From NCBI RefSeq assembly GCF_039727615.1, contig NZ_CP152474.1:1302001-1366000 (forward strand): a stretch of 64,000 bases of DNA, given 5' to 3'. The stretch comes from Leclercia sp. S52. Its GTDB lineage: Bacteria > Pseudomonadota > Gammaproteobacteria > Enterobacterales > Enterobacteriaceae. Each line of letters opens with the position of its first letter. Within the stretch, counting starts at the first letter, position 1. Position numbers and translations under genes: made by a program. The notes below the pieces were generated by a model. That model searched no databases and was not told the DNA's origin. It was given only the letters and a program-made list of their open reading frames with translations. Shown piece after piece: positions 1,472 to 43,654 of the stretch.

Positions 1472-2212
1472 TATTTGCCCCCCCAGGTTGCCCGGCAGGC
1501 GAACTTTACGTTCGACCAGGTTCATCACCAGCATAATCACGGCATTAATCAGCACATACGCCAGGGTAATGGCGGTGAAGGATTCCCACGCGTGGGCGGA
1601 GTAATCCAGCAGCTTGCCCGCCTGCGCGGCCATATCGACCAGACCGATGGTGGAGGCGATGGCCGAGTTTTTCACCAGGTTCATCATCTCCGAGGTCATC
1701 GGCGGCACAATCACGCGATAGGCATTCGGCAGCAGCACATAGCGGTAGGCCTGCGGTAAGGTCAGACCCATCGCCAGGGCGGCGTTTTTCTGTCCACGGG
1801 GCAGGGACTGGATCGCTGCGCGCACCTGTTCGCATACGCGGGCTGCGGTGAACAGACCGAGACAGAGCATAGAGGAGACAAAGAACTGAACGTTAGGATC
1901 CAGTTCAGACTTGAACCACATGCCGATATCTTCCGGCAGCAGTTCCGGGATAACCAGATACCAGGTAAAGAACTGCACGATTAACGGAACGTTACGGAAC
2001 AGTTCGACGTAGCAGGTTCCCAGTGAGGAGAGAAAACGGTTAGGCACGGTACGTAAAATACCGAACAGCGAGCCGACGAGGAAGGCAATAATCCAGGCCG
2101 TGATCGACAGTGCGACCGTGACCTGAAAACCGCTCCACAGCCAGCCAAGATAGGTGGTGTTGCCGAACGGGGCTTGCTGCAGAAAAATGCCCCAGTTCCA
2201 GTCGATTGACAT
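1471..2212 (-). CDS. gltJ: Glutamate/aspartate ABC transporter permease GltJ (frameshift at last codons, fused in frame to gltK)
   Basis: Permease partner of GltK. The sequence from [10 protein letters not shown] to [11 protein letters not shown] is collinear with GltJ. The coding-strand run at 1478-1484 has seven Gs; with six, the gene ends Gly-Gly-Lys-stop after 246 aa, the normal length, and its TAA overlaps the gltK ATG. With seven, the last codons become Gly-Gly-Gln-Ile-Met and translation continues into GltK. The protein is otherwise intact, with the permease loop ([12 protein letters not shown]) present. The gene is separated from gltI by the SroC terminator, which probably lowers permease expression relative to the binding protein. 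Confidence 0.9.
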
Positions 2213-2220
2213 AATAAACT

Positions 2221-2385
2221 CCAGAAAAAAAAGGGTAGCAGCGCTACCCTCGAAGATTGGTGAGAAGCTTTAATGTTCGCGCTGAGTGGGGAACGACCAC
2301 TCAACGTTTAGTCTGTCCGCGCTTCCCGACAATCGAGAGGGCAGGAGGTCCCGCCCCTTAATGGTTCTAATTAGTTAAGTGCCTT
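2221..2385 (-). ncRNA. sroC: SroC sRNA (sponge of GcvB), from the gltI 3' region
   Basis: The gltI-gltJ spacer of about 158 bases ends in a strong intrinsic terminator (stem AGGGTAGC/GCTACCCT around 2231-2250, then eight Ts on the minus strand). In E. coli and Salmonella this same interval yields SroC, an Hfq-bound fragment processed from gltI mRNA that base-pairs with GcvB and relieves its repression. Position, size and terminator match; the exact 5' processing site cannot be seen, so the upstream boundary is approximate. Confidence 0.7.
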
Positions 2386-3279
2386 GTCATTCGGTTCTTT
2401 GAACAGCGCCTTCATGTCGTCAGACAGCTCAAAGTTCATGTTCAGATTTTTTGGTGGGATTGGGTTCTTGAACCACTTATCGAACCATTTCTCCGCGTCG
2501 CCGGAGGTCTGAACCTGAGCGATGGTGTCATCGACCAGTTTCTTAAATTCCGCGTCGTCTTTACGCATCATGCAGCCGTAGGCCTCTTTGGACTGCGCAG
2601 TGCCGACGATTTCCCAGTTGTCCGGTTTCTTCGCCTTCGCGCGCTCACCAGCCAGCAGGGCATCATCCATCATAAAGGCTACCGCGCGGCCGCTCTCCAG
2701 GGTACGGAAGGAGTCACCGTGGTCTTTGGCGCTGATGATGCGCATGTCCATTTTCTTCTCTTCGTTCAGCTTGTGCAGCAGCACTTCAGAGGTGGTACCG
2801 GAGGTCACGACTACCGCTTTGCCTTTCAGGTCGTCGAAGTCTTTAATCTCGCCGCCTTTTTTGGTCAGCAGACGGGTACCGACCACGAAGATGGTGTCGG
2901 AGAAGGCAGCCTGTTTCTGACGCTCAAGGTTGTTGGTGGTGGAACCACACTCAAAATCGAAGGTGCCGTTTTGCAGCAGCGGGATACGGTTTTGTGAAGT
3001 GATTGGGATCAGCTTCACTTCCAGATCCGGTTTGTTCAGTTTTTTCTTCACCGCGTCAACGATGGCGTTGGAGTAAGCCTGAGAGTAACCCACGACTTTT
3101 TGCGTGTTGTCGTAGTATGAGAACGGAACAGAGGATTCACGGTGGCCGACCACAATCACGCCGTTTTTAGCGATCTTTTCCAGGGTGCCACCCGCTGCCG
3201 GGGCAGCATCTTCGGCGTGCACGACGCCTGCAGACAATCCCATTACCAGCATTGCTGTGGCCAGTTTACGTAATTGCAT
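2371..3279 (-). CDS. gltI: Glutamate/aspartate periplasmic binding protein GltI
   Basis: 302-aa solute-binding protein of family 3. An N-terminal Sec signal peptide (MQLRKLATAM, then a hydrophobic stretch to VVHA-ED) directs it to the periplasm, where it captures glutamate or aspartate for GltJKL. The ATG at 3279 is chosen because AGGAG lies six bases upstream; a TTG two codons earlier overlaps the ribosome-binding site. The mature region contains the conserved TTNNLERQKQAAFSDTIFV block. First gene of gltI-(SroC)-gltJKL. Confidence 0.97.
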   Translation of the reverse strand: MQLRKLATAMLVMGLSAGVVHAEDAAPAAGGTLEKIAKNGVIVVGHRESSVPFSYYDNTQKVVGYSQAYSNAIVDAVKKKLNKPDLEVKLIPITSQNRIPLLQNGTFDFECGSTTNNLERQKQAAFSDTIFVVGTRLLTKKGGEIKDFDDLKGKAVVVTSGTTSEVLLHKLNEEKKMDMRIISAKDHGDSFRTLESGRAVAFMMDDALLAGERAKAKKPDNWEIVGTAQSKEAYGCMMRKDDAEFKKLVDDTIAQVQTSGDAEKWFDKWFKNPIPPKNLNMNFELSDDMKALFKEPNDKALN

Positions 3280-3593
3280 ATCCAACTCCTTTTTTATCAG
3301 CGTCAGGTGCGCATTGATATTCGGTGTGATGTTGTTATAGCTCGCGCGATACGAGTGCAGTGTTATACGTGTTTGTTAACATTTAGTTTGGCTTAATGTA
3401 AAGATTTTGCTGCGTTATTGTTTATTTTTGCGAAGCGCGCCGCACCATTCAGAGGCATAAATCTGCCGTTGCACCGTTTCGGTGCTACCGGTGAACAATG
3501 CTGGTGCGACCCGGTTGCACGTTAAGCCAAATCGCGTTTACATGAATAAACAAAGCAATAGACGTGCCAGAAATGGGAAGCGGAGGAGAAATT
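3280..3593. other. gltI upstream spacer
   Basis: AT-rich non-coding interval upstream of gltI. It carries the gltI leader and presumably its promoter; apart from the GcvB target I see no gene or RNA in it. Confidence 0.5.
3322..3337 (-). promoter_or_regulatory. C/A-rich GcvB target in gltI leader
   Basis: The minus strand reads AACAACATCACACC about 45-60 bases before the gltI start. In Salmonella and E. coli, gltI is repressed when the G/U-rich R1 region of GcvB pairs with a C/A-rich element at this place. The match to that class of site is visible here; pairing in this organism is inferred. Together with SroC it makes a loop in which gltI mRNA is both a target of GcvB and a source of its sponge. 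Confidence 0.6.
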
Positions 3594-3661
3594 GCCCGGC
3601 GGCGCGTTGCTTGCCGGGCCTACGTATGTAGGCCGGGTAAGGCGAAGCCGCCACCCGGCAA
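3594..3661. repeat. REP pair (BIME)
   Basis: Two inverted copies of the enterobacterial REP palindrome (GCCGGGCCTACG.../...GTAGGCCGGGTAAGGCGAAGCCGCCACCCGGC) lie between lnt and gltI. This is the most complete BIME of the window; REPs of the same family recur at 10.6, 24.0, 29.1, 49.9, 55.2 and 59.5 kb. Confidence 0.85.
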
Positions 3662-3674
3662 CAGAGGGGGAATG

Positions 3675-5213
3675 TTACTTACGACGCTGACGAAGGCTCA
3701 TCAGCACGGCGCCAAAGCCGAACAGCAGGGTCAGGATCCACAGCGGCCAGTTGCCGGTACGGGCGTAAGGCGTCAGCCCGCTGGTCGGGGTGACTTTTGC
3801 GGTCAGCACGTCGCGGGTGAACTGCGGCAGCATGGCCTGAATTTCGCCCTGCGGGCCAATCACGGCGGTGATGCCATTGTTAGTGCTGCGCAGCAGTGGA
3901 CGCGCCAGCTCCAGGGAGCGCATGCGCGCCATCTGGAAGTGCTGCCATGGGCCGATCGACTTACCGAACCAGGCATCGTTGGAGATGGTCAGCAGATAGT
4001 CGGTATTCGGGCGGAAATTATCCCGCACCTGCTCACCGAGGATGATCTCGTAGCAAATGGCGGCGGTCAGCAGGAAGCCGTGGGCGCTCAGCTGAGGCTG
4101 AACGTAGGAGCCCCGGCTAAAGGACGACATTGGCAAATCGAAGAACGGTGCCAGCGGACGCAGAATCGACTCCAGCGGCACAAACTCACCGAACGGCACC
4201 AGGTGATTTTTGTTGTAGCGGTTGGTCGACTCATAGCTGTACGGATTGTCTTTCCCGAGCATAATGATGGTGTTGTAAGTGTCGTAACGGTTCTGCTTGT
4301 TCAGACGCGCATCCACTATCCCGGTGATCAGGGTAGTGTCACGGGCACGGAGCAGGTCGTCCATCATGCCAAGAAAACGCTGCTGGTTAATCTCCAGATC
4401 GGGGATCGCCGACTCCGGCCAGATAATCAGCTGGGATTTACCCATCTCTTTCTGGGTGGCATCCAGATAAATTTTCAGGGTGTTGATCAGCTGACCTTCA
4501 TCCCATTTTAACGACTGAGGAATATTCCCCTGCACCATCGACACCTGGGTGGCGCGTTCCGGCTCAAGGGTAAACCACTGGATATAACGCAGCGGGAAAG
4601 GCAGGGCAAAGAGGATCAGCGCCGCCACCAGCGGACGCCAGTTACGCTGCACCAGCGCCAGCACCAGCAGGCCGCTCACTACCATCAGCAGGAAGTTGAT
4701 CGCCTCGACGCCCATCACCGGCGCCAGTCCTTTCAGCGGGCCGTCGATCTGGCTGTAGCCAAACTGCAGCCAGGGGAAGCCGGTCAGCACCCAGCCGCGC
4801 AGGAATTCGCTGCACTGCCAGACCACCGGAGCGGCAATCGCCACCCGCAGCCAGCTGGTTTTCGGCCACAGGCGCGACAAAATACCGGCAAACAGACCGG
4901 TATAGAGCGAGAGGTAGGCCGCCAGCAGCACCACGAGGAAGACATTTACCGGACCCGGCATGCCGCCAAACTGCGCGATACTGACGTAAACCCAGTTAAT
5001 ACCGGAACCAAACAGGCCCAGCCCCCAGAAATAGCCAATTGCCGCCGCCTGAACAGGGCGTCGGTTAAGCGTCAGCCCCTGCAGTCCCATCAGGGAGAGG
5101 AGGGCCGCAGGCCAGAAGTCATAAGGGGAAAAAGCCAGCGTACCGCTGGCTCCGAGGATCAGCGCCAGCAGCAGACGTATGCGCTGGCGTTCAAGCAGTG
5201 GGGCAAATGCCAT
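3675..5213 (-). CDS. lnt: Apolipoprotein N-acyltransferase Lnt
   Basis: 512-aa inner-membrane enzyme that adds the third acyl chain to the N-terminal cysteine of lipoproteins before Lol-dependent export. The N-terminal half is a bundle of hydrophobic helices. The C-terminal half is a periplasmic nitrilase-like domain with the Glu in [10 protein letters not shown], the Lys in [10 protein letters not shown] and the nucleophilic Cys in AAICYEII. Length equals the E. coli protein. The gene starts five bases after the corC stop, as the last gene of the miaB-ybeZ-ybeY-corC-lnt run. Confidence 0.97.
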
Positions 5214-5218
5214 TTAAA

Positions 5219-6097
5219 TCAATCATCCAGTGTGGGTTGCGGAGCGTCGTCCGGCATTCTTACATGAACCTGAATAATACGTCGACTGTCGGCCATTGCG
5301 ACCTTGAACTGGTAACCGTCTATTTCTACGGTCTCACCGCGTGCCGGAAGATGTCCAAAGGCCTGCATCACCAGCCCGCCGATGGTATCCACCTCTTCAT
5401 CGCTGAAGTGGGTGCCAAAGGTGTCATTGAAATCTTCGATTGGCGCCAGCGCACGCACGGTCCAGGTGTGGCGGCTCAGCTGACGGAAGTCGATATCCTC
5501 TTCTTCGTCATACTCATCTTCGATTTCACCCACGATCAGTTCAAGAATATCTTCGATGGTCACCAGGCCAGAAACACCGCCAAATTCATCGATAACAATC
5601 GCCATGTGATAGCGTTGAGAGCGAAACTCTTTCAGCATGCGGTCTACCCGCTTGCTTTCCGGAACAACCACCGCCGGACGTAACACTTTTTCCATGCTGA
5701 AGGCTTCAGACTCGCTGCGCATAAACGGCAGCAGATCTTTGGCCATCAGAATCCCCTCGATATGATCTTTGTCTTCGCTGATGACCGGGAAACGCGAGTG
5801 GGCAGACTCGATGATGACGTCGAGGCACTCTTCCAGGGTCTGGTTACGTTTCAGGGTAATCATCTGCGAGCGGGGGATCATGATATCGCGAACGCGTTGG
5901 TCTGCGATGTCCATTACCCCTTCGAGCATTTCGCGCGTATCTTCGTCGATAAGATCGTTCTGCCCGGAGTCACGGATCAGCTCCAGAAGTTCGTCACGGT
6001 TTTTAGGTTCACCGTGGAACAGCTGGCTCAGGAGGAGGGAGAAAAATCCCTTTTTGCTGGTTGGAGTGTCGCTACTGTGTGAATTGTCGTCGCTCAT
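5219..6097 (-). CDS. corC: CorC/YbeX, CBS-domain protein of magnesium/cobalt homeostasis
   Basis: 292-aa protein with an acidic, charged N-terminus, a tandem CBS pair (about residues 65-190, including [11 protein letters not shown] and [16 protein letters not shown]) and the C-terminal CorC_HlyC transporter-associated domain. It has no membrane segments. The family is linked to Mg2+/Co2+ resistance, and YbeX also to ribosome metabolism together with YbeY/YbeZ. It sits between ybeY (about 100-base gap) and lnt (5-base gap). Confidence 0.95.
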
Positions 6098-6200
6098 GGC
6101 GTTTGTTAAGGGTTCTCATGTTGATTTAAAACTGCCGTCGCGGACCTGGGTCTGACACAACGGCACATTATGTCAGTCCGGCGCAAAAGCGCCGAACAGA

Positions 6201-6668
6201 CTACTCTTTCTCGGCAATGTACGGATCCTCATAGCCCAGAGCAAGCATTATCTCTGTCTCGAGGGACTCCATCTCTTCCGCTTCATCATCTTCAATATGA
6301 TCGTAACCCAGCAGATGCAGGCTTCCGTGCACCACCATGTGCGCCCAGTGGGCCTCGAGCGGTTTCTGCTGCTCCTTCGCTTCCTGCTCAACCACCTGCC
6401 GACAGATGATCAAATCACCCAGCAGCGGCAGTTCGATGCCCGGCGGCGCTTCAAACGGGAAAGAGAGCACGTTGGTCGGCTTATCTTTCCCGCGATAGGT
6501 CAGGTTCAGGTCGTGGCTTTCTGCTTCATCCACCAGGCGAATCGTGACTTCTGACTCTTCCTGAAACTGCGGGATGACGGCATTCAGCCACGCCTGGAAC
6601 TGGCTCTCTTCCGGCAAACCGGAATTGTCTTCACAGGCCAGCTGTAAATCGAGGATCACCTGACTCAT
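6201..6668 (-). CDS. ybeY: Endoribonuclease YbeY (rRNA maturation factor)
   Basis: 155-aa metalloprotein of the UPF0054 family involved in 16S rRNA 3'-end maturation and 70S quality control. The zinc-binding signature [11 protein letters not shown] supplies His114, His118 and His124, matching E. coli numbering. The start ATG overlaps the ybeZ stop by four bases (ATGA), so the two are translationally coupled. Confidence 0.97.
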
Positions 6669-7711
6669 TTCTGCTCTTGCTCCTGGGCTTCGCGTTTGCG
6701 TTCCGCGGCCTGTTCTGCTTTACGTTTTTGATCTGCTGCTTCCCACGCTTCATACGCCGTGACGATGCGGGCTACCACCGGGTGGCGCACCACGTCTTCG
6801 CTGTGGAAGAAGTTAAAGCTGATTTCGTCCACTTCGGACAGGACTTCAATGGCGTGACGCAGACCCGATTTGGTACTGCGCGGCAGGTCGACCTGGGTGA
6901 TATCCCCGGTGATCACCGCTTTGGAGTTAAAGCCAATACGGGTCAGGAACATCTTCATCTGTTCGATGGTGGTGTTCTGGCTCTCATCGAGGATGATGAA
7001 CGCATCGTTCAGGGTACGGCCGCGCATATAGGCCAGCGGAGCCACTTCAATGACGTTACGTTCAATCAGTTTTTCGACCTTCTCAAAGCCGAGCATCTCA
7101 AACAGCGCATCGTACAGCGGGCGCAGATAAGGATCGACCTTCTGGCTCAGGTCGCCAGGCAGGAAGCCCAGCTTCTCGCCCGCTTCAACGGCCGGACGGG
7201 TGAGCAGAATACGGCGGATCTCCTGGCGCTCCAGGGCATCCACGGCAGCCGCCACCGCAAGGTAGGTTTTACCCGTACCCGCCGGGCCAACGCCGAAGGT
7301 GATGTCATGATCGAGAATATTGGCGATGTACTGCGCCTGGTTTGGCGTGCGCGGCTTAATAACGCCACGTTTGGTCTGGATATGGATCGCTTTGCCGAAG
7401 TCCGGCACGCTCTCCGCGCTCTGCTCCAGCACCCGCGTTTCTTTGATCGCCAGATGGATCTGTTCCGGCTCAATATCCTGAGTTTCACCGCGCATCGGGG
7501 CGGTATCAACGTACAGGCTACGGAGGATATCCGCAGCGGCATTGACGCAAATGGCGCGTCCGGTGAGTTTGAACTGGTTATCGCGACGATTAATCTCGAT
7601 ACCCAGACGTCGCTCCAGATGTTTGATGTTGTCATCAAACGGCCCGCACAGGCTCAGCAGGCGAGCGTTGTCTGCTGGCTCAAGGGTAATTTCACGTGTT
7701 TCTATATTCAA
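6665..7711 (-). CDS. ybeZ: PhoH-like ATPase YbeZ
   Basis: 348-aa PhoH-family P-loop ATPase that works with YbeY in RNA metabolism. Walker A GPAGTGKT is at residues 142-149, Walker B is in [11 protein letters not shown], and the C-terminal tail is rich in Lys/Glu/Gln. I place the start at the TTG at 7711 ((M)NIETREITL), which aligns with the E. coli N-terminus and has AGGAACGG just upstream. The frame is open further upstream, but that part resembles nothing and lacks a ribosome-binding site. Confidence 0.94.
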
Positions 7712-7862
7712 ACCGTTCCTCTTAATGTCTCGGGTGTCATAAGGCAGTGGGTCTGTCTTAAGAAAGTATTCACGCCACAGAATAAAGGCGCAAGCATTGC
7801 GAAGGATATGGGGGAGAGAAGAGGGGAAAACAAGGCCTGCCGGAAATGGCAGGCCAGAGGCG

Positions 7863-9293
7863 TTATGGCTGATAAACGCCGACGCCCAGATCGCTTTCTT
7901 TACGGGTACGGGCAATCACCGACTCCGGTGATTCGGCGACGCGCAGACCCATTTCATCTTCGGTGCGCACCAGTTTTCCACGCAGAGAGTTGGTCAGTAC
8001 CTCGAGGATCTCGATATCGACGAACTTGCCCACCAGATCCGGCGTGCCTTCGAAGTTCACCACGCGGTTGTTCTCCGTACGGCCAGAGAGCTGCATGATG
8101 CTCTTACGTGAAGTGCCTTCTACCAGCACGCGTTGCACGGTGCCGAGCATCCGACGGCTCCAGGCGTTAGCCTGCTGGTTGATGCGATCCTGAAGGATAT
8201 ACAGACGCTGCTTTTTCACCTCATCCGGCACGTCATCAACCATATCGGCGGCTGGCGTACCCGGGCGGGCAGAGAAGATGAAGCTGTAGCTCACGTCGAA
8301 GTTCACATCACCAATAACCTTCATGGTGCGCTCAAAATCGTCGTCCGTTTCACCCGGGAAGCCGACGATAAAGTCAGAGCTGATCTGAATATCCGGGCGC
8401 GCTTCACGCAGCTTGCGGATGATCGCTTTATATTCCAGCGCGGTGTGGGTGCGGCCCATCAGGTTCAGCACGCGGTCAGAACCACACTGGATCGGCAGGT
8501 GCAGGAAACTCACCAGCTCCGGCGTATCGCGATAGACATCGATGATGTCATCGGTGAATTCAATCGGGTGGCTGGTGGTGAAGCGAATGCGGTCGATGCC
8601 GTCGATGGCCGCCACCAGACGCAGCAGTTCGGCAAAGGAGCCGGTGCTGCCGTCATAGTTCTCGCCACGCCAGGCGTTCACGTTCTGCCCGAGTAGGTTC
8701 ACTTCACGTACGCCCTGCGCTGCCAGTTGAGCAATTTCAAAGAGAATATCGTCGCAAGGGCGGCTGACTTCCTCACCGCGGGTATAAGGCACCACGCAGT
8801 AGGTACAGTATTTGTTGCAGCCTTCCATAATCGAGACGAAGGCGGTCGGACCATCCGCACGCGGTTCCGGCAGACGGTCAAATTTTTCGATTTCCGGGAA
8901 GCTGACGTCGATGATCGCCTTGCGCTGACCGGTGCCGCGCACGGCGTTGATCATCTCCGGCAGACGATGCAGGGTTTGCGGGCCAAAAATAATATCGACG
9001 TAGTGGGCGCGCTGACGGATCAGTTTGCCTTCCTGCGAGGCGACACAACCGCCGACGCCAATGATCACCTCCGGTCTTTTTTGTTTGATCAGCTTCCAGC
9101 GACCTAACTGGTGAAAGACTTTCTCCTGCGCCTTTTCACGGATCGAGCAGGTGTTCAGCAGCAACACGTCTGCCTCTTCCGCCACGTCGGTGAGTTGATA
9201 CCCATGGGTGGCATCCAGCAGATCGGCCATCTTGGATGAATCGTATTCGTTCATCTGACAGCCCCAGGTTTTAATATGGAGTTTTTTTGTCAT
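7863..9293 (-). CDS. miaB: tRNA-2-methylthio-N6-dimethylallyladenosine synthase MiaB
   Basis: 476-aa radical-SAM methylthiotransferase that converts i6A37 to ms2i6A37 in tRNAs reading UNN codons. The N-terminal UPF0004 domain carries Cys12, Cys49 and Cys83 for the auxiliary 4Fe-4S cluster. The radical-SAM motif CNKYCTYC gives Cys159, Cys163 and Cys166, and a C-terminal TRAM domain follows. The ATG at 9293 ([12 protein letters not shown]) matches the family; the frame stays open for another 118 codons upstream without homology. First gene of the operon, divergent from ubiF. Confidence 0.97.
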
Positions 9294-9422
9294 CGACTTG
9301 CTCGTGCTCAGGATTGCAGGGCGCGTATTGTAATGCTTTGGTGCGGTTGTGACCAGTATGAAGGTTCCCGGACTCAAGGCGAAAAAATCCGGTAAACTTA
9401 AGGGATTCTCAAATAAGGACAA

Positions 9423-10605
9423 ATGACCATGACTATCCAACAAACCGGGATCGCCGTTGTCGGCGGCGGTATGGTCGGCGGGGCGCTGGCGCTGGGGCTG
9501 GCGCAACAGGGTTTCGACGTAACGGTGATCGAACAGGCGCCGCCGCCAGCCTTTGACGCTTCTCAGCAGCCGGATGTCCGCATCTCCGCCATCAGCGCCG
9601 CGTCGGTCGATCTGCTGCGCGGACTGGGGGGTCTGGGACGCCATCATGGCGATGCGCGCGCACCCTTATCGCCGCCTGGAGACCTGGGAGTGGGAAAATG
9701 CGCATGTGGTGTTTGATGCCGCAGAGCTCAAACTCCCGCTGCTGGGGTATATGGTTGAAAATACGGTTCTGCAGCAGGCGCTCTGGCAGGCGCTGGAGGC
9801 GCATCCGCAGGTTACGCTGCGCGTCCCCGCGTCGGTGAAGCATCTGCACCGCCACAACGATCAGCATCTTATTGAGCTGGATAACGGCGAGCAGCTGGCG
9901 GTGAAACTGCTGGTGGGTGCCGACGGGGCGAATTCCCGGGTGCGGGAGCTTGCCGGGATCGGCATTCACGCCTGGCAATATCAACAATCCTGCATGCTGA
10001 TCACCGTCGACTGCGAGAACGATCCGGGCGACAGCACCTGGCAGCACTTTACCCCGAACGGCCCGCACGCCTTTTTACCGCTGTTCGATCGCTGGGCTTC
10101 CCTGGTGTGGTATGACACTCCGGCACGTATTCGCCAGCTGCAGGGGCTGTCGATGGAACAGCTGCAGCGCGAAATCGCCCACCATTTCCCGACACGGCTG
10201 GGTAAGGTCACGCCCGTCGCCGCGGGTGCTTTCCCGCTGACGCGCCGTCATGCCCTGCATTATGCGCAGGAGGGGCTGGCTTTGGTCGGCGATGCGGCAC
10301 ACACCATTCATCCGCTGGCGGGGCAGGGCGTAAACCTTGGCTATCGCGACGTCGACGCGTTGATAGAGGTCCTCAGCAACGCCCGCAACCACGGCGAAGC
10401 CTGGGCCAGCCACCAGGTGCTTAAGCGTTATCAGACCCGACGGATGGCGGACAACTTCATCATGCAGTCCGGGATGGATCTGTTTTATGCCGGGTTCAGC
10501 AACGATCTGGGGCCGCTGCGCGTTCTGCGTAACGTGGGATTGATGGCGGCACAGCGCGCAGGCGGGCTAAAACGTCAGGCGCTGAAGTACGCCTTAGGTC
10601 TTTAA
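9423..10605 (+). pseudogene. ubiF: UbiF, 2-octaprenyl-3-methyl-6-methoxy-1,4-benzoquinol hydroxylase (one +1 frameshift)
   Basis: FAD-dependent monooxygenase for the C6 hydroxylation in aerobic ubiquinone synthesis. The N-terminal Rossmann motif [15 protein letters not shown] is at about residues 14-28; GADGANSRVREL and GDAAHTIHPLAGQGVNLGYRD mark the FAD/NAD-binding family. After VDLLRGLG the frame breaks in a six-G run at 9626-9631. With five Gs it continues as Val-Trp-Asp-Ala-Ile and gives 393 aa, the normal size (E. coli 391). As written, translation ends at 9716 after 97 codons. An ATG at 9429 is an alternative start. Loss of UbiF would cripple aerobic respiration, so a sequencing error is likely. 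Confidence 0.88.
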
Positions 10606-10611
10606 AACTGT

Positions 10612-10646
10612 TGTAGGCCGGGTAAGGCGAAGCCGCCACCCGGCAT
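10612..10646. repeat. Single REP element after ubiF
   Basis: One REP palindrome (GTAGGCCGGGTAAGGCGAAGCCGCCACCCGGC) immediately 3' of ubiF. It is the same sequence variant as the second half of the BIME at 3.6 kb. Confidence 0.8.
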
Positions 10647-10669
10647 AACTTTCAGAAACGCAGAAAAGC

Positions 10670-10697
10670 AAAAAGCTCGCCGAAGCGAGCTTTTTTA
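10670..10697 (-). terminator. Terminator of the tRNA operon
   Basis: The stem AAGCTCGC/GCGAGCTT, followed on the minus strand by a T run, lies a few bases beyond the CCA end of glnX. It is a typical intrinsic terminator for the seven-tRNA transcript. Confidence 0.75.
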
Positions 10698-10700
10698 GTG

Positions 10701-10775: not shown

Positions 10776-10814
10776 ATTGCGTTAAATAAAGAATATCTAA
10801 CGACTTTTTTAAAT

Positions 10815-10889: not shown

Positions 10890-10933
10890 ACAATTTTTTC
10901 TAGTTTACCGACAGAATCGATAAATTACTAATT

Positions 10934-17791: not shown

Positions 17792-17902
17792 TCCACACAC
17801 TCAGAAAGCCAGTGAATCATCAACTGTATATATAAGTTAGTGACACAATAAAAACACAGCTGAGAATACACCGTTAACGGGGTCTCATAGGGGGGAAGCA
17901 AA

Positions 17903-29206: not shown

Positions 29207-30521
29207 TTAGCTCAGTTTATTTTTTAGCTCAAAGCGCGGTGACACCAGGCCGTAGAGCGTCCAGCCCATAAAGGTCACCATTGCTCCGTACAGCATCGCT
29301 TCCTGACCGGAAGAGTAGAGCGCATAGAAGCTGTAAATTGCCCCCACCAGCGCCACAATATTGGCAACCTTCGCTTTGCCCGGATCGACTTTCGCCACCT
29401 TCTGAATAATCACCAGCGCCGCCATCGACAGGATGTACGGGATGATATTGGTCACCACCGCCAGGTTAACCAGTACGTTGAACTGGCTGTTCAGCGACGG
29501 GCTGATGGTCATCAGGGACAGACCGCTCTGGAAGATAACAATCGCCAGCATTCCCTGTACCGGGGCTTCTGACCTGGTGACGCGGGAGAAGATTTTCGGG
29601 AAGTAACCCGCATCGGCCGAGGTTTTAAACACCTGGGCGATGGTGAACTGCCAGCCGAGGAGAGAGCCGCAGCACGACATCACCATCAGACCCATAATCA
29701 CTTTCCCGACTTCCGGGGTGAACATCTGCGCGAAGGCCAGCCCGAACGGCGCGGTAGAGTTGGCCAGATCCATGTTTGGCACAATCCCGGCGATCACGTT
29801 GGTGGAGACGATATAGATTACCGCCGCGCCCAGGGTTCCGCCCAGCACCGCAATCGGCACGTTCTTTTCCGGGTTCTCCACCACTTCGGCGTTAGCACAG
29901 GCGGATTCCAGCCCGAGGAAAGCCCATAACGTCATGGCGATGGAGGAGCCAACGGCGGTGAAGAACGGCACATGGTGCGGGTTCCAGGAGTTGGCGTACA
30001 GCGTCGGGCTAAACCAGAACCAGCCGATGATGCACAGCCCGACCACCGGGATGATCACCCCCCCAGACGGTAATACTGCTGAGCTGCCCTGTGATACGCG
30101 CCCCGCCAAAGTTGGCGATGGTGCAGATCCACAGTACGCCGATGGTTGCCAGCCCGATTTGTACCGGGCTGAGCGTGGCACCGAACAACTCGGTACCGTA
30201 ACCCACCGCCGAAATCGCAATGGCGACGTTGGCGATCAGCAGCGACACGCCGTAGGTATAGTTGGCCATAAAGTTGCCCGACTTACCGAAGGCATATTCG
30301 GCATAGCCGCCCATCCCGCCTGACTTGCGGCTGAACATCCCGCACTTGGCGAATGCCCACGCCAGCGCCATCGAACCCACCGCCGTGACCAGCCAGGAGA
30401 TGATCGAGATCGTCCCCACCTCCGCGAGCTTGGTTGGCAGCATGATAATGCCGGAGCCCATCATGTTGACCATGGTGAGAATGGTGAGCTGCACCACCCC
30501 CATTTTGTTGGATTTACTCAT
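29207..30521 (-). pseudogene. potE: PotE, putrescine-ornithine antiporter (one +1 frameshift)
   Basis: APC-superfamily inner-membrane exchanger that imports ornithine and exports putrescine, the partner of SpeF in acid resistance. The N-terminal part (MSKSNKMGVVQLTILTMVNM...) and C-terminal part (...PVVGLCIIGWFWFSP to LSPRFELKNKL) are in different frames. They meet at a seven-C run, 30058-30064 (Gs on the coding strand). With six, TGG GGG GTG ATC ATC reads Trp-Gly-Val-Ile-Ile as in E. coli and the product is 437 aa. The start overlaps the speF stop by four bases (ATGA). Confidence 0.87.
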
Positions 30522-34032: not shown

Positions 34033-36706
34033 AAATCCTCTGGAAATTCATTCAGTTCAGGGGGCGTATCGCGCGGCAGTGTAACACAAAATCCGGCCCC
34101 GCCTTCGGGGCGGTTATGGGCCGTGATGGTGCCACCGTGCACCTCCACAATTGCCTGGCAGATGGCCAGCCCCAGCCCCACGCCGGGAATGGCCGACTCC
34201 TTATTACCGCGGGCGAACTTATCAAAGATAGCCCGTTCCTGACCCACCGGAATACCGGGGCCGGTATCCCACACCTCCAGCTGCAGTTGGTCAGGGGTGA
34301 CGCTGGCGTGAATCCCGATTTGCGCTCTGCTACCGGCGTATTTGCCGGCGTTCTCCAGCAGGTTAATCAGCACCCGCTCGAACAGCGGGCCGTCCACGTG
34401 GATCAACGCCAGAGGATCTGACATATCCAGCGCGATATGCCGACCACCGAGCCCCGGCTCCAGCGTTTTCAGGGCGCTGCCGATCACCTCTTCCAGGGTC
34501 AGCCACTCTTTTTTCAGGTTAAAGCCACCGGACTGGATCCGCGCCATATCCAGCAGGTTGTTCACCAGCCGGGTAGTATTCAGCACGTGCTGGCGGATCT
34601 CGCTGGCCTGGGGGGGCGTGGCGCGAGCCCTCTGCTGCCAGGTCGAGGGTCAGGATCTCCGACTGGCCGAACAGCACCGTCAGCGGCGTGCGCAGATCGT
34701 GAGAGAGGGCCGCCAGCAGGGAGTTACGAATACTCTCCCGCTCGCTGGCTAGCCGCGCCTGCTCTTCGCTGGCGGTCAACGCCAGCCGCTCGAGAGCGCT
34801 GGCGACCAGCAGGGTGAAGGTCTCCAGCAGGCGCTGCTGCTCGGGGATCATCAGCTGACGCAGGTTGGACGGCTCGACGATGGCCACTCCCTGGTGCTGC
34901 AGCGGCAGGATGAGATACGGCACCCCGGGCAGGGTGTCGGTTCCTGCCCCGGCGGGCTGGCCCTTGTCAAAGCTCCAGCGAGCAATGGCCTCATCCCAGG
35001 GCGTCATGCCCGAGGCCGGGGAGAGCGGGCGCAGCACACCTTCGCGATCCGGCACGAGGATCAGGCTGCGGGCGTGAAAGGTGGAGTGGATAAACTGCTG
35101 GCTGGTGTGGGCAATATCCTGCGGCGTGCGGCCCACCGCCAGTGCTTTAGACATCTCGTACAGATGGCGGGTGCGCTGCTCGCGGTAGCGGGCGATCCGC
35201 GCCTGATAGCGCACCCCCGCCGTCAGGTTGCCGATTAATAATCCCACCGCCAGCATCACGGCGAAGGTGAGCACGTACTGCACGTCCGACACCGCCAGGG
35301 TGCCGCGTGGGGCGATGAAAAAGAGATCGAAGCTGACCACGTTGATCACCGTCGCCAGCACCGAAGGCCAGCGCCCGTAAAACAGCGCCACCACCACCAC
35401 CCCAAGCAGGTAGATCATCACCAGGTTGGCGGCGTCAAAATCGGGTAGCCACTGACTGGCGATAAAGGTGATCAGGGCGCAGAGCAGCACCGCCACCAGA
35501 CAGCCGCGCAGCTGGATCCGCCATTTGTCGCTGAAGGTCCGGTTATCGGGGGGTTCTGGCGGGCAGGGCCGCGGGTTTGTCGTCGAGGGCGACGATCAGC
35601 AGGTCGAGGTCGGGGGCGCGCTGTGCCAGCTTGTCGGCAAAGGTGTCCCTGTTAAACCACCGGCGATGGGACCGTCTGCCGATGACAATCTTGCCGAGGT
35701 TATGCTCCCGGGCGTAGCGCAGGATGGCTTTGTCTTCCGCCTGTTCCGCCAGGGTAGCGGTTTCGGCCCCCAGCTCCTGAGCCAGACGCAGGGCGCTGAG
35801 AATGGCGCGGCGCTGGTTCTCCGGCAGGCGGTGCAGCTGTGGGGTTTCAACGTAGACGGCGTGCCAGACGCTGCCGAACTTCGCCGCCAGACGCGCGGCG
35901 GTGCGCACCAGCTTCTCATTGCCGCTGCCGTGGCCGATACAGAGCAGGATCGCATCGCGGGTATGCCACACCTTCTCCTCGCCCTGATGGTCGCGCCAGG
36001 CCCGCATCTGATCGTCCACCCGGTCGGCGGTGCGGCGCAGGGCCAGCTCGCGCAGGGCGATCAAATTGCCTTTACGGAAGAAGTGCTCGATTGCCCGTTC
36101 GGCCTGTCCGGCAATGTAAACCTTACCTTCATGCAGGCGCTGGCGCAGATCGTCCGGGGGCAGATCCACCAGCACCACTTCATCCGCAGCGTCGAAGAAC
36201 GGATCCGGGACGGTCTCCCGGACCTGAATGCCGGTGACGCCGCTAACCACGTCGTTAAGGCTCTCCAGATGCTGGACGTTGACGGTGGTAAAGACATCGA
36301 TGCCCGCCTCAAGTAGCTCCTCAACGTCCTGCCAGCGTTTCGGGTGGCGTGAACCGGGGGCGTTACTGTGCGCCAGCTCGTCCATCAGGATCAGCGCCGG
36401 GCGGCGGGCGAGGGCGGCATCGAGATCGAACTCCGTTACCAGACGTCCGCGATGATGAATGCGCCGGGGCGGCTGAGTTGCCAGGCCAGCCAGCATGGCG
36501 GCGGTCTCCTGGCGACCGTGGGTCTCCGCCACGCCGATCAAAATATCGAGCCCCTGGGCGCGCAGACGCTGCGCTTCACTGAGCATGGCGAAGGTCTTGC
36601 CGACCCCCGCACAGGCGCCGAAGAAGATTTTCAGCTTGCCGCGATGGGGTGCGGCAGCCTGCTCCAGCAGTTTGTCCGGGTCCGGGCGCTGAGGCTCGTC
36701 GATCAT
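34029..36706 (-). pseudogene. kdpD: KdpD, sensor histidine kinase (two +1 frameshifts)
   Basis: K+/turgor-sensing kinase for KdpE. Seen in order: Walker A-like GACAGVGKT (residues 30-38), USP-like domain, four-helix membrane region (ITFIASQWLPDF...LLIGNLTAGV), GAF-like region, phosphoacceptor His in LSHDLRTPLT and a HATPase_c domain. Frame is lost at 35548-35553 (six Cs on the coding strand, five expected; Pro-Asp-Asn-Arg restored) and at 34610-34616 (seven Cs, six expected; Ala-Pro-Gln-Ala-Ser restored). Corrected length 891 aa against 894 in E. coli. Start abuts the kdpC stop. Confidence 0.88.
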
Positions 36707-37282
36707 TTAGTTTTTCCTTAGTGCGTCCAGCGCCAGATTTAATTCAACAATATTGACCACCGCGCCGCCCATCGCGCTGAACAGCGGTTTTTGCGTATGC
36801 TCAGCCACCAGTTGGCTGAGCTGCGCGGAGGTGAGCTGACGTGCCTGGGCCACGCGCGGGATCTGCCAGGCGACGGCCTGCGGCGTCAGGCTGTAGTCCA
36901 GCCCGCTGGCCGAAGCGGTCACCAGCTCAACCGGCACCGCCTGGCTGGCCTGTGGATTGGCGACGCGTAGTGCCGCTACGCGGGCGCGAATGGCGTTATC
37001 CAGCTCAGGGTTGCTGCCCGCCAGGTTGCTGCCGCCCGAGGCCAGCGGATTATACGGGCTTTCCGCCGTGGCGGAAGGACGGCCGTGAAAGTAACCCGCC
37101 CCGGTAAAGTCTTGCCCAATCAGGCGTGAACCGCGGATCTCCCCCTGCTGGCGGATAAGCGAACCGTTAGCCTGGTCGGCAAACCACCACTGGCCCAGCG
37201 CGGTAGTCACCAGCGGGTAGACGCCGCCGGTGATCAGGGCCAGCAGAATAAACAACAGTATAGCGGGACGTAACATAGCCAT
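36707..37282 (-). CDS. kdpC: KdpC, K+-transporting ATPase subunit C
   Basis: 191-aa inner-membrane protein with one N-terminal membrane helix ([21 protein letters not shown]) and a periplasmic domain containing [17 protein letters not shown]. It stabilises ATP binding and assembly of KdpFABC. Intact, unlike its neighbours; its stop directly adjoins the kdpD start. Twelve bases after kdpB. Confidence 0.96.
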
Positions 37283-37294
37283 TTGATTTTCCTC

Positions 37295-39344
37295 TTAAAC
37301 CAGCCCGAACAGGGTGAGCACCAGGTCGATAGCCTTAATGCCGATAAAGGGCACCACCAGCCCACCCAGACCGTAAACCCACAGATTGCGGCGCAGCATG
37401 GCGGCGGCGGTGAGCGGCTTGTAGCTCACCCCCTTCAGCGCCAGCGGGATCAGAAAGACAATGATCAGCGCGTTAAAGATCACCGCGCTCAGGATGGCCG
37501 AGGCGGGGGAGTGCAGGTGCATCACGTTCAGGGCGTTCAGCTGCGGATAGGTCGCTGCAAACGCCGCCGGAATAATGGCGAAATATTTCGCCACGTCGTT
37601 GGCGATGCTGAAGGTGGTCAGCGAGCCCCGGGTCATCAGCATCTGTTTGCCGATATGCACCACCTCAATCAGCTTGGTCGGGTTGGAGTCGAGGTCGACC
37701 ATATTCCCGGCCTCTTTTGCCGCCTGGGTGCCGGAGTTCATCGCCACCGCCACATCCGCCTGGGCGAGGGCCGGGGCGTCGTTGGTGCCGTCTCCGGTCA
37801 TCGCCACCAGCCGTCCTTCAGCCTGGTACTGGCGGATCAGCGCCAGTTTGGCTTCCGGCGTCGCCTCGGAGAGGAAATCATCCACCCCTGCTTCGGCGGC
37901 AATGGCGGCGGCGGTCAGACGGTTATCCCCGGTGATCATCACCGTTTTGATGCCCATTTTGCGCAGCTGGGCAAAACGCTCCTTGATGCCGCCTTTAACG
38001 ATATCCTTCAGGGCGATCACCCCCAGCACGGTAGCGCCTTCGGCCACCACCAGCGGGGTGGCCCCCCTGACGGGCGACGTTCTCCACCAGGGTATCAACC
38101 TGCGGCGGGAAGTGGCCGTTGTTGGCGGCGATATGCCGGCGAATGGCATCCACCGAGCCTTTGCGGATCAGCCGGTCCTGAATGTTAATCCCGCTCATCC
38201 GCGTCTGCGCCGTAAAGGGCACAAAGGTGGCATGCAGGTTCTGGACGTCGCGCTGGCGCAGGTTAAAGCGCTGCTTGGCGAGGATCACGATGCTGCGGCC
38301 TTCCGGGGTTTCATCCGCCAGCGAGGCCAGTTGAGCCGCGTCGGCCAGGGTTTTTTCATCCACGCCCGGGGCGGGCAGGAACTCAGAGGCCTGACGGTTA
38401 CCGAGGGTGATGGTGCCGGTTTTATCCAGCAGCAGCACGTCGACGTCGCCCGCCGCTTCCACCGCCCGGCCGCTGGTGGCGATAACGTTGGCCGCCAGCA
38501 TCCGGCTCATGCCCGCCACGCCGATGGCCGACAGCAGGCCGCCGATGGTGGTCGGGATCAGGCAGACCAGCAGCGCAACCAGCACGGTCACGCTCACCGC
38601 CGTGCCGCCATACGATGAGAAAGGCCACAGGGTGGCGGTCGCCAGCAGGAAGACGATGGTCAGCGCCACCAGCAGAATGGTCAGGGCGATCTCGTTCGGG
38701 GTTTTCCGCCGCTGAGCGCCTTCTACCATGGCGATCATCCGGTCGAGGAAGGTCTCGCCAGGGTTAACGCTGCACTGGATCACCAGCCAGTCGGAGAGAA
38801 TGCGCGTCCCGCCGGTGACTGAGGCAAAATCGCCGCCGGACTCACGGATCACCGGTGCGGATTCGCCGGTGATCGCGCTCTCATCCACCGAGGCGCCCCC
38901 TTCAATGACCTCCCCGTCGCAGGGAATAATGTCCCCGGCCTCCACCAGCACGATATCGCCTTTGCGCAGCGTGTCTGCCGGAACCCTGTCGGTATCGGCA
39001 CCGTATTTCGCTTCGCGCAGCTTTCGGGCGAACGCCGTTTTCTGCACCCCTTTGAGGCTGTTGGCCTGCGCTTTGCTGCGACCTTCCGCCAGCGCCTCAG
39101 CGACGTTGGCAAACAGCACGGTGAACCACAGCCACAGGCTGATCGCCGCGGTAAAGCTGGCGCTTCCTGCCAGCCATCCGCCCGCCATGGCAAGGGCCAG
39201 CAGGGTGGTCAGCAGGCTGCCCAGCCAGACGATAAACATCACCGGGTTGCGCCACTGCACGCGCGGGTCGACTTTTTTAACCGCATCCATCAGCGCCTGA
39301 CGAACCAGCGAGGGTTCGAGCAGGGCCAGTTGCTTACGACTCAT
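37295..39344 (-). pseudogene. kdpB: KdpB, K+-transporting P-type ATPase subunit (one +1 frameshift)
   Basis: Catalytic subunit of the high-affinity K+ pump. The N-terminal part holds the actuator motif TGES and the phosphorylation motif DKTGTITLG. The C-terminal part holds [21 protein letters not shown] and the last membrane helices. They join at a six-C run, 38062-38067; with five, CAG GGG GCC ACC CCG reads Gln-Gly-Ala-Thr-Pro. Corrected length is 682 aa, equal to E. coli. The start at 39344 ([10 protein letters not shown]) is chosen over an ATG two codons upstream by homology. Confidence 0.88.
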
Positions 39345-39362
39345 GACCAATACTCCGCAAAA

Positions 39363-41043
39363 TCAGCGTAAAGAGAGATGTTCCGCGACCGGGCCTAAGG
39401 CGAGGGCGGGGATAAAGGTGAGGGCGCCTACCAGCAGGACGGTACCGATCAGCAGGCCGACGAACAGCGCGCCGTGGGTTGGTAACGTGCCGCCAGAGGC
39501 GGGCTGGCGGGTCTTATTCACCAGCGATCCGGCGATGGCCATCACCGGCACTATCACCCCGAAGCGTCCGATCAACATGCAGAACGCCAGCAGGCAGTTC
39601 CAGAACGGCGAGTTGGCGCTCAGGCCCGCAAAGGCGCTGCCGTTGTTGTTGGCCGCCGATGAGACCGCGTACAGCACCTCGCTGAACCCGTGGATCCCGG
39701 GGTTGAAGATGCCGCTGCGCCCGGCCTCGGTCATCAGTGCCAGCGCGGTGCCGAGCAGCACCAGCGCCGGGGTGACGAGGATCGCCAGCGCAGTCAGCTT
39801 CATCTCGCGCACGTCGATTTTCTTGCCCAGATATTCCGGGGTGCGGCCAATCATCAGCCCGGCGATAAACACCGCCAGCAGCACAAACAGCAGCATGCCG
39901 TACAGGCCGGAACCGACGCCGCCAAACACCACTTCACCGATCTGCATCAGCCACAGGGGGGATCATCCCGCCCAGCGCGGTGAAGGAGTCATGCATGGCG
40001 TTGACTGCCCCACACGAGGCGGCGGTGGTGACCACGGCGTACAGGCTGCTGGCGAGAATGCCAAAGCGGCTCTCTTTGCCCTCCATATTGCTGTTGCTGT
40101 CTGCCCCCAGCAGCATAAAGTGGCTGTTGCCCTGCCACTCCGCCCACATCACCAGCGCGGCGCAGATCGCAAAGATGATTGACATGGTCCAGAGGATCGC
40201 ATGCCCCTGGCGGCGATCGCTCACCGCATCGCCAAAGGCAAAGCACAGCGCGGTGGGGATCAGGAAGATCGCCAGCATCTGCACGGCGTTAGTCAGTGCC
40301 GTCGGGTTCTCAAACGGATGGGCAGAGTTCGCATTAAAGAAGCCGCCCCCGTTGGTGCCGAGCATTTTGATCGCCTCCTGAGAGGCCACCGGCCCCATCG
40401 GTAGCAGCTGTTTGGCCCCCTCCAGCGAGGTGAAGGGCTGATACGGCAGCAGGTTTTGCAGCACGCCCTGCTGAATAAATAGCAGCGCGATGAGCAGCGA
40501 CAGGGGCAGTAACACCCACAGGGTGATGCGGGTCAGATCGACCCAGGCGTTGCCCAGCGTGGCGATATTCTGGCGGGCGAAGGCGCGGGTGAGGGCGAAG
40601 ATCACCGCAATGCCGCTGGCCGCCGAGAGGAAGTTTTGCACCGTCAGCCCGGCCATCTGGCTGAAATAGCTCAGGGTGGTCTCCCCGGCATAGGACTGCC
40701 AGTTGGTATTGCTGACGAAGCTGACGGCGGTGTTCAGCGCCAGATGCCAGGAGAGCCCAGGCAGCTGCTGTGGATTGAGCGGCAGATAACCCTGCAGCAT
40801 TAACATGGCGAACAGCGCGACCAGACCCACCCCGTTCAGCAGCAGGATCGCGCCCAGATAGTGACGCCAGCCCATTTCTATGGTGCCGATCCCGAGCATT
40901 CGCAGCAGTCCTGCGTCAAGGGCTTGCACCCCGGGTAGCGGCAGGCCGTTAATCATCCGCGCCAGCCACATCCCCAGCGGCCGGGCGAGCACCAACAGCA
41001 CCAGCAGAAAGCCGGCAATAAGCAGAAATCCTTGTGCGGCCAT
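39363..41043 (-). pseudogene. kdpA: KdpA, K+-channel-like subunit (one +1 frameshift)
   Basis: Potassium-selective subunit of KdpFABC with four MPM repeats and about ten membrane helices. Selectivity-loop regions such as [35 protein letters not shown] and [14 protein letters not shown] are present. The frame breaks at a six-G run, 39956-39961; with five, the protein reads Met-Ile-Pro-Leu-Trp-Leu-Met-Gln-Ile and continues to 559 aa (E. coli 557). The start at 41043 overlaps the kdpF stop by one base (TGATG). Confidence 0.88.
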
Positions 41044-41132
41044 CAGAATGCCTCCGCGTTCAACAGGGCATAAATCAGATACCCCAGCAGCAGGAACACC
41101 AGCACGATGCCCGCAATTACACCTGCACTCAC
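41043..41132 (-). CDS. kdpF: KdpF, small stabilising subunit of the Kdp ATPase
   Basis: 29-aa single-helix membrane peptide, starting at GTG after [25 protein letters not shown] then YALLNAEAF. It is nearly identical to E. coli KdpF, which binds at the KdpA/KdpB interface and stabilises the complex. First gene of the operon; its stop overlaps the kdpA start. Confidence 0.93.
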
Positions 41133-41213
41133 AATTCACCTCCGGGTGACATTAGTAATGATGCAAAGCGTAAAATTTCGGTCGCAAAGATTTCGCAAAA
41201 ATCAGAGGGGGGA

Positions 41214-41233
41214 GGTGTAAAAAAAGTATAAAG
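41214..41233 (-). promoter_or_regulatory. KdpE-binding site of the kdpFABC promoter
   Basis: The minus strand reads CTTTATACTTTTTTTACACC followed by a C-rich stretch, which matches the T-rich KdpE operator of E. coli kdpFABC (TTTATACTTTTTTTACACC). It lies about 80 bases upstream of kdpF. Confidence 0.75.
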
Positions 41234-41442
41234 AGGGATAAGACCCTAATTTAACTAATGGTTAGTATAAATTTAACTTTCCTGTAACTAAATTACGGCG
41301 TGGAGTGTAAATATTCACTAAATGGATGAGAAAAAGTGGTCGGATGAGTAGTAAAATTACAGCCAAAGCGTTACTATTTTCTTCAGATAACCAGTTTTAC
41401 TTTTCCGGAGAGGGTTTCCGGCCAGAGAAAGGGGAGAAAATG
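41234..41442. other. kdpF-ybfA divergent spacer
   Basis: AT-rich interval beyond the KdpE site, carrying the ybfA leader. The ybfA frame stays open to 41326, but the extra 39 codons look non-coding and lack a ribosome-binding site. Confidence 0.45.
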
Positions 41443-41649
41443 ATGGAATTTTACAAAGCATATCCGGCACATATCGTTTTTATTCGCCGCACTTTCGCTG
41501 TTCTGGCGGGGGTTCTGGCGTTACCAGTGATGCTTTTCTGGAAAGAACGTGCTCGTTTTTATAGCTATCTGCATCGCGTCTGGGCTAAAACCAGCGATAA
41601 ACCGGTGTGGATGGATCAGGCCGAAAAAGCCACTTGTGATTTTTATTAA
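41443..41649 (+). CDS. ybfA: YbfA, small membrane protein
   Basis: 68-aa protein of unknown function, conserved next to kdp. It has one hydrophobic segment ([16 protein letters not shown]), then a basic stretch and the very conserved tail [20 protein letters not shown]. The start at 41443 follows GGGGAG and matches the E. coli length; the preceding ATG gives one extra Met. Divergent from kdpFABC. Confidence 0.88.
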
Positions 41650-41684
41650 ATTTTAGAAAGACTACACACAGCACCTGCAGCAAT

Positions 41685-41718
41685 AAAAAAACCGCCACAG
41701 CAATGTGGCGGTTTTTTT
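41685..41718. terminator. Bidirectional terminator after ybfA
   Basis: Stem ACCGCCACA/TGTGGCGGT flanked by an A run and a T run. Confidence 0.85.
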
Positions 41719-42022
41719 ATCCCTCGGGATTCGCGGTCCGTTGGGAGGGGCTACCAGGCTCTTCCAGAGAACGCCATCTTATCCCTAACCGCCCTCAGGA
41801 GAAATGTGCGCAATCTAAATGAATTCTGAAAGGCCTGTGGCGGTCTGCATATGACCCATGATGTTGACTATGATGTGTCGTCCCTTTCCGCCATCTCGCA
41901 CATGGGCACCGGTCCCGGGAAAGGTGTATTCACAACCGTAAATCAGGTTCTTCCAGAACTTGTGTCTGCCGGATTATCACCGGTGGTGAACGGTGGAGCG
42001 GTGAGTTTGCAGGGACCGCATA
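41719..42022. other. Spacer between ybfA and the orphan small ORF
   Basis: About 300 bases without a recognisable gene. A 77-codon open frame (41851-42081, plus) runs through it, but its codon pattern and product resemble nothing, and it has no clear ribosome-binding site. In E. coli and Salmonella ybgA lies in this neighbourhood; no trace of it is seen. Confidence 0.4.
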
Positions 42023-42130
42023 ATGAAACGCTATCTGTGTATCGCGTTCATTGTCGCCAGCGTATTCGTGGTAAGAAGTGACGATCCAGACGTCTTCGTT
42101 GCCCTTACCCCGTTCGCGCAGGACAAGTAG
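42023..42130 (+). CDS. Orphan small ORF, putative membrane or exported peptide
   Basis: 35-aa ORF, MKRYLCIAFIVASVFVVRSD followed by DPDVFVALTPFAQDK. A short basic start and a hydrophobic stretch precede an acidic, Pro-containing tail. It has a ribosome-binding site (CAGGGA, eight bases before ATG) and an intrinsic terminator five bases after its stop, which supports expression as its own unit. I do not recognise the family. The layout (one hydrophobic helix, short polar tail, tight terminator) resembles both small stress membrane proteins and type I toxins, without sequence support for either. Confidence 0.45.
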   Translation: MKRYLCIAFIVASVFVVRSDDPDVFVALTPFAQDK

Positions 42131-42134
42131 CGTT

Positions 42135-42161
42135 AAGGCCGCCATCAGGGCGGCCTTTTTT
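42135..42161 (+). terminator. Intrinsic terminator after the orphan small ORF
   Basis: Stem GGCCGCC/GGCGGCC followed by six Ts, five bases beyond the stop at 42130. Confidence 0.85.
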
Positions 42162-42240
42162 ATTCCATTATGGCTACACTTGTTAAAGCGAAGTATCCTC
42201 GATGACCTGGAGATGTTACAGACGATAATTCTGGAGTGTT

Positions 42241-43654
42241 ATGGCCACCCATCTGGTCTGGTTTCGCGCCGATCTGCGCATCCACGACAACCTGGCGCTT
42301 GCCGCCGCCTGTCGCGACAAAAACGCCCGCGTGTTGGCGCTTTTCATCGCCACGCCGCAACAGTGGCAACAGCACGCGATGGCACCGCGTCAGGCCGCAT
42401 TTCTTCACGCCCATCTCAACGGTCTACAGCAGCAGCTGGCTGATAAAGGCATTCCGCTGCTGTATGCCCAGGTCGCTGATTTTGCGGCGCAGGCTGAGAA
42501 AGTGATTCAGCTCTGTGCCGAGCATGAGGTCACCCATCTTTTTTTACAACTATCAATACGAACTGAACGAGCAGCAGCGCGATCGTCAGCTGGAGCGCGC
42601 GCTGGAGGAGGTGACCTGCCAGGGGTTTGATGACAGCGTTATTCTCCCTCCCGGCAGCGTGATGACCGGCAATCACGAGATGTACAAAGTGTTTACGCCG
42701 TTTAAAAACGCCTGGCTGCGGCGGCTGAAAGAGGGGCTGCCCGACTGTGCGGCGGCGCCTGCCGCGCGCGAGGGCGAGAAGGTCGCGCCGGTGGCGCTGG
42801 ATTTCGACTATCCGCAGCAGGCGTTCGATGCCGCCCTGTTTCCGGCGAGCGAGAAAGAGGCGATTGCCCGGCTGCGCCAGTTCTGTCAGCACGATGCAGG
42901 AAACTACGAGACGCAGCGTGATTTTCCGGCCATCGAAGGCACCAGCCGTCTCTCCGCCTGTCTGGCGTTGGGGGTGCTATCACCCCGTCAGTGCCTGCAC
43001 AGATTGCTGGCCGAGCAGCCCCAGGCGCTGGAGGGTGGTCCGGGCGCGGTATGGCTCAACGAGCTGATCTGGCGAGAGTTTTATCGTCATCTGATGACGT
43101 ATCACCCTGATTTATGTAAATATCGACCATTCATCCGTTGGACTGATAACGTGAAATGGCAGTCTGACGATGTTCAGCAGAAGGCCTGGCAATATGGACA
43201 GACCGGCTACCCGATCGTCGATGCCGCCATGCGCCAGCTGAATGAAACCGGCTGGATGCACAACCGCCTGCGGATGATTACCGCCAGCTTCCTGGTGAAA
43301 GACCTGCTGATCGACTGGCGAGCCGGTGAACGTTACTTTATGTCGCAGCTGATCGATGGCGACCTGGCGGCCAACAACGGCGGCTGGCAGTGGGCGGCGT
43401 CGACCGGAACCGACGCCGCGCCCTATTTTCGTATTTTTAACCCGACAACCCAGGGGCAGAAGTTCGATACCGACGGCGTGTTTATCCGCCGCTGGCTGCC
43501 GGAGCTGGCCACCGTGCCGGACCAGGCCCTCCATGACCCCTGGACCTGGGCGGACAAGCAGGGGGTAACCCTCGAATATCCGCGCCCGGTTGTCGATCAC
43601 AAACAGGCACGCGTCGCCACGCTGGCAGCGTATGAAGCCGCTCGTAAAGCGTAA
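42241..43654 (+). pseudogene. phrB: Deoxyribodipyrimidine photolyase (one +1 frameshift)
   Basis: Class I CPD photolyase that repairs UV dimers with light. The N-terminal antenna domain (MATHLVWFRADLRIHDN) and C-terminal FAD domain (GLSRLSACLALGVLSPRQ-type region, WLNELIWREFYRHL, GWMHNRLRMITASFLVKDLLIDWR, DGDLAANNGGWQW) are in different frames. They meet at a seven-T run, 42539-42545; with six, the text reads His-Leu-Phe-Tyr-Asn-Tyr-Gln and the protein has 470 aa (E. coli 472). The only shift here in a T rather than G/C run. Confidence 0.87.

Follow-up and report, generated by a model that had tools for sequence, protein, structure and literature searches.

Eight homopolymer runs and the genes that hold them

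The DNA analysed here, hereafter the window, is a stretch of 64,000 nucleotides of Leclercia sp. S52 (positions 1302001-1366000 of a one-contig chromosome of 4,932,897 bases), in which eight homopolymer runs break or fuse the genes gltJ, ubiF, potE, kdpD, kdpB, kdpA and phr. The gene order of the window resembles that of E. coli K-12 from gltL to sucD, as judged from the sizes of the open reading frames (ORFs) and their matches. In a comparison of lnt, the closest named relatives belong to Leclercia, and a genome of the same genus (G019) aligns with the window at 95.0% identity over positions 4-64000. Comparison with the relatives indicates that the eight shifts are almost certainly errors of the assembly consensus, in which the runs were over-called, rather than mutations. 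The runs are listed below, with the state of the relatives at each.

1478..1484, minus strand, C7 at the 3' end of gltJ; C6 in 8/8 relatives; stop lost, with fusion of gltJ and gltK
9626..9631, plus strand, G6 in ubiF; break at about residue 67 of 391; one base fewer in 8/8 relatives
30058..30064, minus strand, C7 in potE; break at about residue 156 of 439; one base fewer in 5/5 relatives
34610..34616, minus strand, G7 in kdpD; second break of the gene, at about residue 702 of 894; one base fewer in 5/5 relatives
35548..35553, minus strand, G6 in kdpD; first break of the gene, at about residue 380 of 894; one base fewer in 5/5 relatives
38062..38067, minus strand, C6 in kdpB; break at about residue 430 of 682; C5 in 5/5 relatives
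39956..39961, minus strand, G6 in kdpA; break at about residue 362 of 557; one base fewer in 5/5 relatives
42539..42545, plus strand, T7 in phr, the sole A/T run; break at about residue 101 of 472; one base fewer in 5/5 relatives

The comparison took in five relatives (G019, G002, G018, G012 and G010) at all eight runs; three named loci (L001, L002 and L064) were added for the runs in gltJ and ubiF. In the alignments, every relative compared carries exactly one base fewer at each of the runs, in line with the claim of the sequence-only reading that each run holds one base too many; in several relatives another base interrupts the aligned stretch, and the counterpart is then not simply the same run with one base less. 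At 9626, 30058, 35548 and 39956, G019 holds another base inside the stretch and a substitution in the present genome has also lengthened the run, a pattern that fits a fault striking any long run present. Seven of the eight are G/C runs, again in agreement with the earlier claim. Runs of at least six account for 449 of the 64,000 bases (0.7%), so the location of all eight shifts inside such runs cannot be put down to chance.

The effects on the genes were judged from the sequences of the relatives and not from altered versions of the genes. Matched to the E. coli proteins, kdpD is spread over three frames and kdpB, kdpA, potE, phr and ubiF over two each, and G019 encodes all seven genes whole, which confirms that the seven are broken or fused as first read. 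The gltJ gene is of full length but has lost its stop and continues into gltK (471-amino acid ORF at 797-2212), its open frame comprising 490 codons here versus 265 in L001, L002 and L064. Across 80 named loci, ubiF is whole in 75, split in L064 and partial in L053, with no scored match in the remaining three. In the DNA of the cell itself the runs would be shorter, and gltJ, ubiF, potE, kdpD, kdpB, kdpA and phr would presumably be intact and work as they do in the relatives.

Sign, length and base dependence across the chromosome

For a chromosome-wide view, the window was combined with 580 kb from seven further places, giving eight blocks of 644 kb in all, for which G019 provided counterparts to all seven further places and G002 to four. 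Against the references G019 and E. coli, alignment succeeded for 392 of the 407 genes across the eight blocks (418,831 bases). Insertions and deletions (indels) that are not a multiple of three were counted within the E. coli-homologous stretch of each gene, cancelling pairs at most 45 bases apart being skipped. After 16 of the 64 resulting rows had been dropped, 48 events in 39 genes were kept, and all 48 are insertions of one base (sign test, p 7e-15); G/C runs hold 41 of them and A/T runs 7. They occur in all eight blocks, at densities from 3 in 100 kb up to 8 in 64 kb, and naive scaling of 48 events per 419 kb would suggest several hundred events per chromosome. The count of insertions against deletions that the sequence-only reading had proposed was in this way carried out on the 644-kb sample, with a one-sided outcome.

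A second comparison, with G019 and G002 as references, covered 266 conserved genes and found a net frame change in 33 of them; the window contributes 7 of 44, and the other four blocks 6/72, 7/53, 7/45 and 6/52. Several of the 33 lie upstream of real starts, including two of the three deletions (uvrD and dcuC), and the third deletion falls in an ORF that matches nothing in E. coli. The identical pipeline gave 10 of 239 genes when applied to G019 and 25 of 260 when applied to G002; on inspection, this background appears to consist mainly of events of the present genome seen in mirror image, of differences close to the starts and ends of ORFs and of misaligned divergent stretches, and not of long runs.

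The frequency of lengthened runs was related to their inferred true length. G/C runs were called long in 1 of 1421 cases at length four, 24 of 230 at five, 12 of 29 at six and 4 of 6 at seven; the corresponding figures for A/T runs are 0/1601, 0/549, 7/148 and 0/15. The sequencing or polishing step would report G/C runs of true length 5-7 one base long, with a probability of over-calling that would climb steeply with run length, and A/T runs of six would be over-called too, less often.

The same features bear on the biological alternative raised at the outset, namely that the lineage is deficient in mismatch repair and that genuine slippage in runs broke the genes. Indels of repair-defective bacteria cluster in homopolymers and become more frequent with run length (PMC5854121, PMC8510543), as they do here. 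Since true mutation in such strains climbs with run length as well, the length dependence alone is not decisive. The sign is more telling, as the mutS lines of V. fischeri and V. cholerae described in PMC5854121 acquire both insertions and deletions; the ratio here is 48:0 after filtering and 55 events of +1 to 4 of -1 in the unfiltered set of genes with at least 90% identity. An excess of transitions, another expected mark of a mutator, would be masked by the divergence of about 5% from the nearest genome.

Ordinary decay of dispensable genes, for instance the loss of kdp and of putrescine uptake in a particular niche, would account for the four events in kdp and for those in recB, recC and recD, all three of which are affected, as might happen under relaxed selection. 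Such decay would be expected to produce both signs, other indel lengths and a clustering in dispensable genes; the kept events are of +1 only and are found in every block, essential genes included (nonsense changes being outside the count). Decay is accordingly regarded as highly unlikely.

Essential genes, mismatch repair and 16S ribosomal RNA copies

The list of essential genes is that of E. coli, and the genes are presumed to be essential in the present organism as well. Eight of the 86 in the sample are split or cut. The genes murD, cdsA, mrdA, tsf, tilS, dnaE and rplX occupy at least two frames here and are whole in G019; the break lies inside the protein in murD, cdsA, tsf and tilS, mrdA carries three events and is spread over four frames, dnaE breaks off around residue 1060 of 1160 and rplX near its end. 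The eighth, coaE, is without its first residues here and whole in G019. A second copy was searched for in the case of dnaE alone, and the genome showed only one match to that gene. For runs of lengths 5-7, the rate of events in essential genes (10/180) is similar to that in the others (37/797; Fisher p 0.57), and the same holds for G/C runs only (6/24 versus 34/241; p 0.23). That eight essential genes are hit, at a per-run rate close to that of other genes, argues against a mutator lineage.

The repair genes themselves point the same way. Following a check proposed in the sequence-only reading, mutS, mutL, mutH and uvrD were all found to have open frames with matches above the cut-off (point changes, dam and dnaQ lying outside the check), and the mutator alternative therefore gains no support from them. 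A UvrD-like helicase gene elsewhere in the genome (G000:C1:1683022-1684419) has an open frame of 564 amino acids, compared with 697 in G019 and 693 in G002, and may represent another over-call.

The 16S ribosomal RNA (rRNA) provides a comparison that is independent of reading frames. A G6 run present in all 64 copies found in eight relatives is G7 in four of the eight copies found in the present genome (4/8 versus 0/64; hypergeometric p ~7e-5, calculated by hand). Half of the copies being long at a true length of six is close to the 12 of 29 found in genes. Copies that differ in run length within one genome are an expected product of consensus error and disagree with a mutator lineage, which, taken with the sign, the essential genes and the intact repair genes, is considered very improbable.

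Two further explanations would accept the longer runs as real. In one, the cell would tolerate the shifts by slippage at the runs, either during transcription or on the ribosome. For A/T runs, slippage in transcription has been described in Buchnera and E. coli, and the same source (PMC5574713) reports homopolymer insertions during transcription only for A/T and none for G/C runs; 41 of the 48 runs here are G/C, and mixed 16S copies would be left unexplained, so that this explanation is exceedingly improbable. In the other, the cell would grow by a genome-wide correction of frame at G/C runs, through a slippage-prone ribosome or polymerase, with the rRNA copies likewise truly mixed; this possibility is given next to no credence. 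Mutator activity, decay and slippage were each rejected, being at odds with the hits in essential genes, with the uniform sign or with the mixed rRNA copies. Systematic over-calling of homopolymers, the explanation favoured by the sequence-only reading, is strongly supported by all of these together with the dependence on run length and base. Any one of the eight shifts could be a real variant; the set of eight as a whole, judged from the sequence comparisons, is an artefact.

Known error patterns, remaining runs and consequences

Several observations weigh against over-calling and have to be set beside the evidence for it. All eight minus rows of the 64 are among the 16 that were dropped, the latter comprising seven of +1, one of +2, six of -1 and two of -2. 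Nine of the dropped rows belong to a cusA-like gene with 65.7% identity in the alignment, one to an ORF at ygdI judged to be spurious (it ends at a stop other than that of the annotation), four lie upstream of annotated starts or are non-genic (the -1 in uvrD; corA; ahpF; an ORF by rplL) and two are repeats of runs already counted (thpR/hrpB and yrdD/tsaC). The sole -1 row that touches a run is inside the ORF judged to be spurious. When pairs are not skipped, the indels number 97, of which 59 are the events in genes with at least 90% identity and 38, of mixed signs, fall in more divergent genes. A cruder count of split genes based on E. coli ORFs gave 41 of 290 here versus 26 and 27 in two relatives; the contrast is weaker, and the high background was put down to spurious ORFs. 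The A/T runs of seven show no rise (0 of 15 long), in a small sample.

The direction of the error is also at variance with part of the literature. As reported, PacBio errors at G/C runs (PMC4487206) and nanopore errors at homopolymers (PMC8486125) are mainly omissions, and Racon polishing turns an excess of insertions into an excess of deletions (Homopolish Table 1, PMC8011154). The +1 sign differs from the bias reported in PMC4487206 and PMC8486125, and a literature search for a sequencing platform prone to lengthening G/C runs gave no clear match. The same sources nevertheless describe an unpolished nanopore draft dominated by insertions (the Flye row of Homopolish Table 1) and a poorer reading of C and G than of A and T runs by nanopore (PMC8486125).

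Comparison with documented cases shows a similar mixture. The residual errors of long-read assemblies described for Kastor (PMC12007338) and Homopolish (PMC8011154) resemble the present ones in being single-base, mostly in homopolymers and a cause of fragmented genes genome-wide; unlike the 48 of 48 kept insertions seen here, mainly in G/C runs, deletions exceed insertions in six of the eight bacterial rows of Kastor Table 1. The case of the PacBio assembly of S. leeuwenhoekii (PMC4487206) likewise concerns G/C homopolymers and frame shifts found by comparison, with bases omitted there and one added here. Closer to the present genome, L064 (LR590464.1, L. adecarboxylata NCTC13032, 21.5 kb) has ubiF, lnt, miaB and asnB split and an excess of insertions, its private indels of 1-2 bases relative to L002 and L001 being 43 plus and 7 minus (n=50). 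On inspection these are mostly doubled bases in short runs or in none, unlike the events in runs of at least five described here.

The window contains ten G/C runs of at least six, eight of them coding, of which seven are shifted. The eighth, in pxpA, serves as an internal control, and the earlier statement that it alone among such coding runs leaves its gene intact holds on the present reading. It is listed here with a non-coding run that is longer than in relatives.

46283..46288, G6 in pxpA, unshifted; G6 also in G019; inside the open frame 45815-46729
17890..17895, G6, non-coding, upstream of nagE; G5 in G019, G002, G018, G012 and G010

The open frame 45815-46729 was named pxpA for its position, as in E. 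coli this gene follows pxpB and pxpC. The run at 17890-17895 is possibly a further over-call, one that has no reading frame to confirm it. The other non-coding G/C run (41207-41212) lies upstream of kdpF/kdpA; the non-coding status of both was judged from E. coli gene positions. A non-coding T6 at 10805-10810, one base longer than in G019, may be another over-call, also outside any frame. Elsewhere in the window, G019 lacks a stretch of 33 bases (63861-63893) that lies towards the 3' end of ORF 62259-63932.

The quality values listed for this closed chromosome (completeness 99.96%, contamination 0.13%) do not show that 39 of 392 conserved genes, about one in ten, are frame-shifted on paper, a few of them only at the last residues. 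A conserved rRNA run compared across the copies of one genome offers a quick test for such a fault that requires no reads. The eight shifts are of no biological significance and their importance is practical: the pseudogenes, truncated operons and ORF fusions that this assembly appears to show should not be taken as biology.

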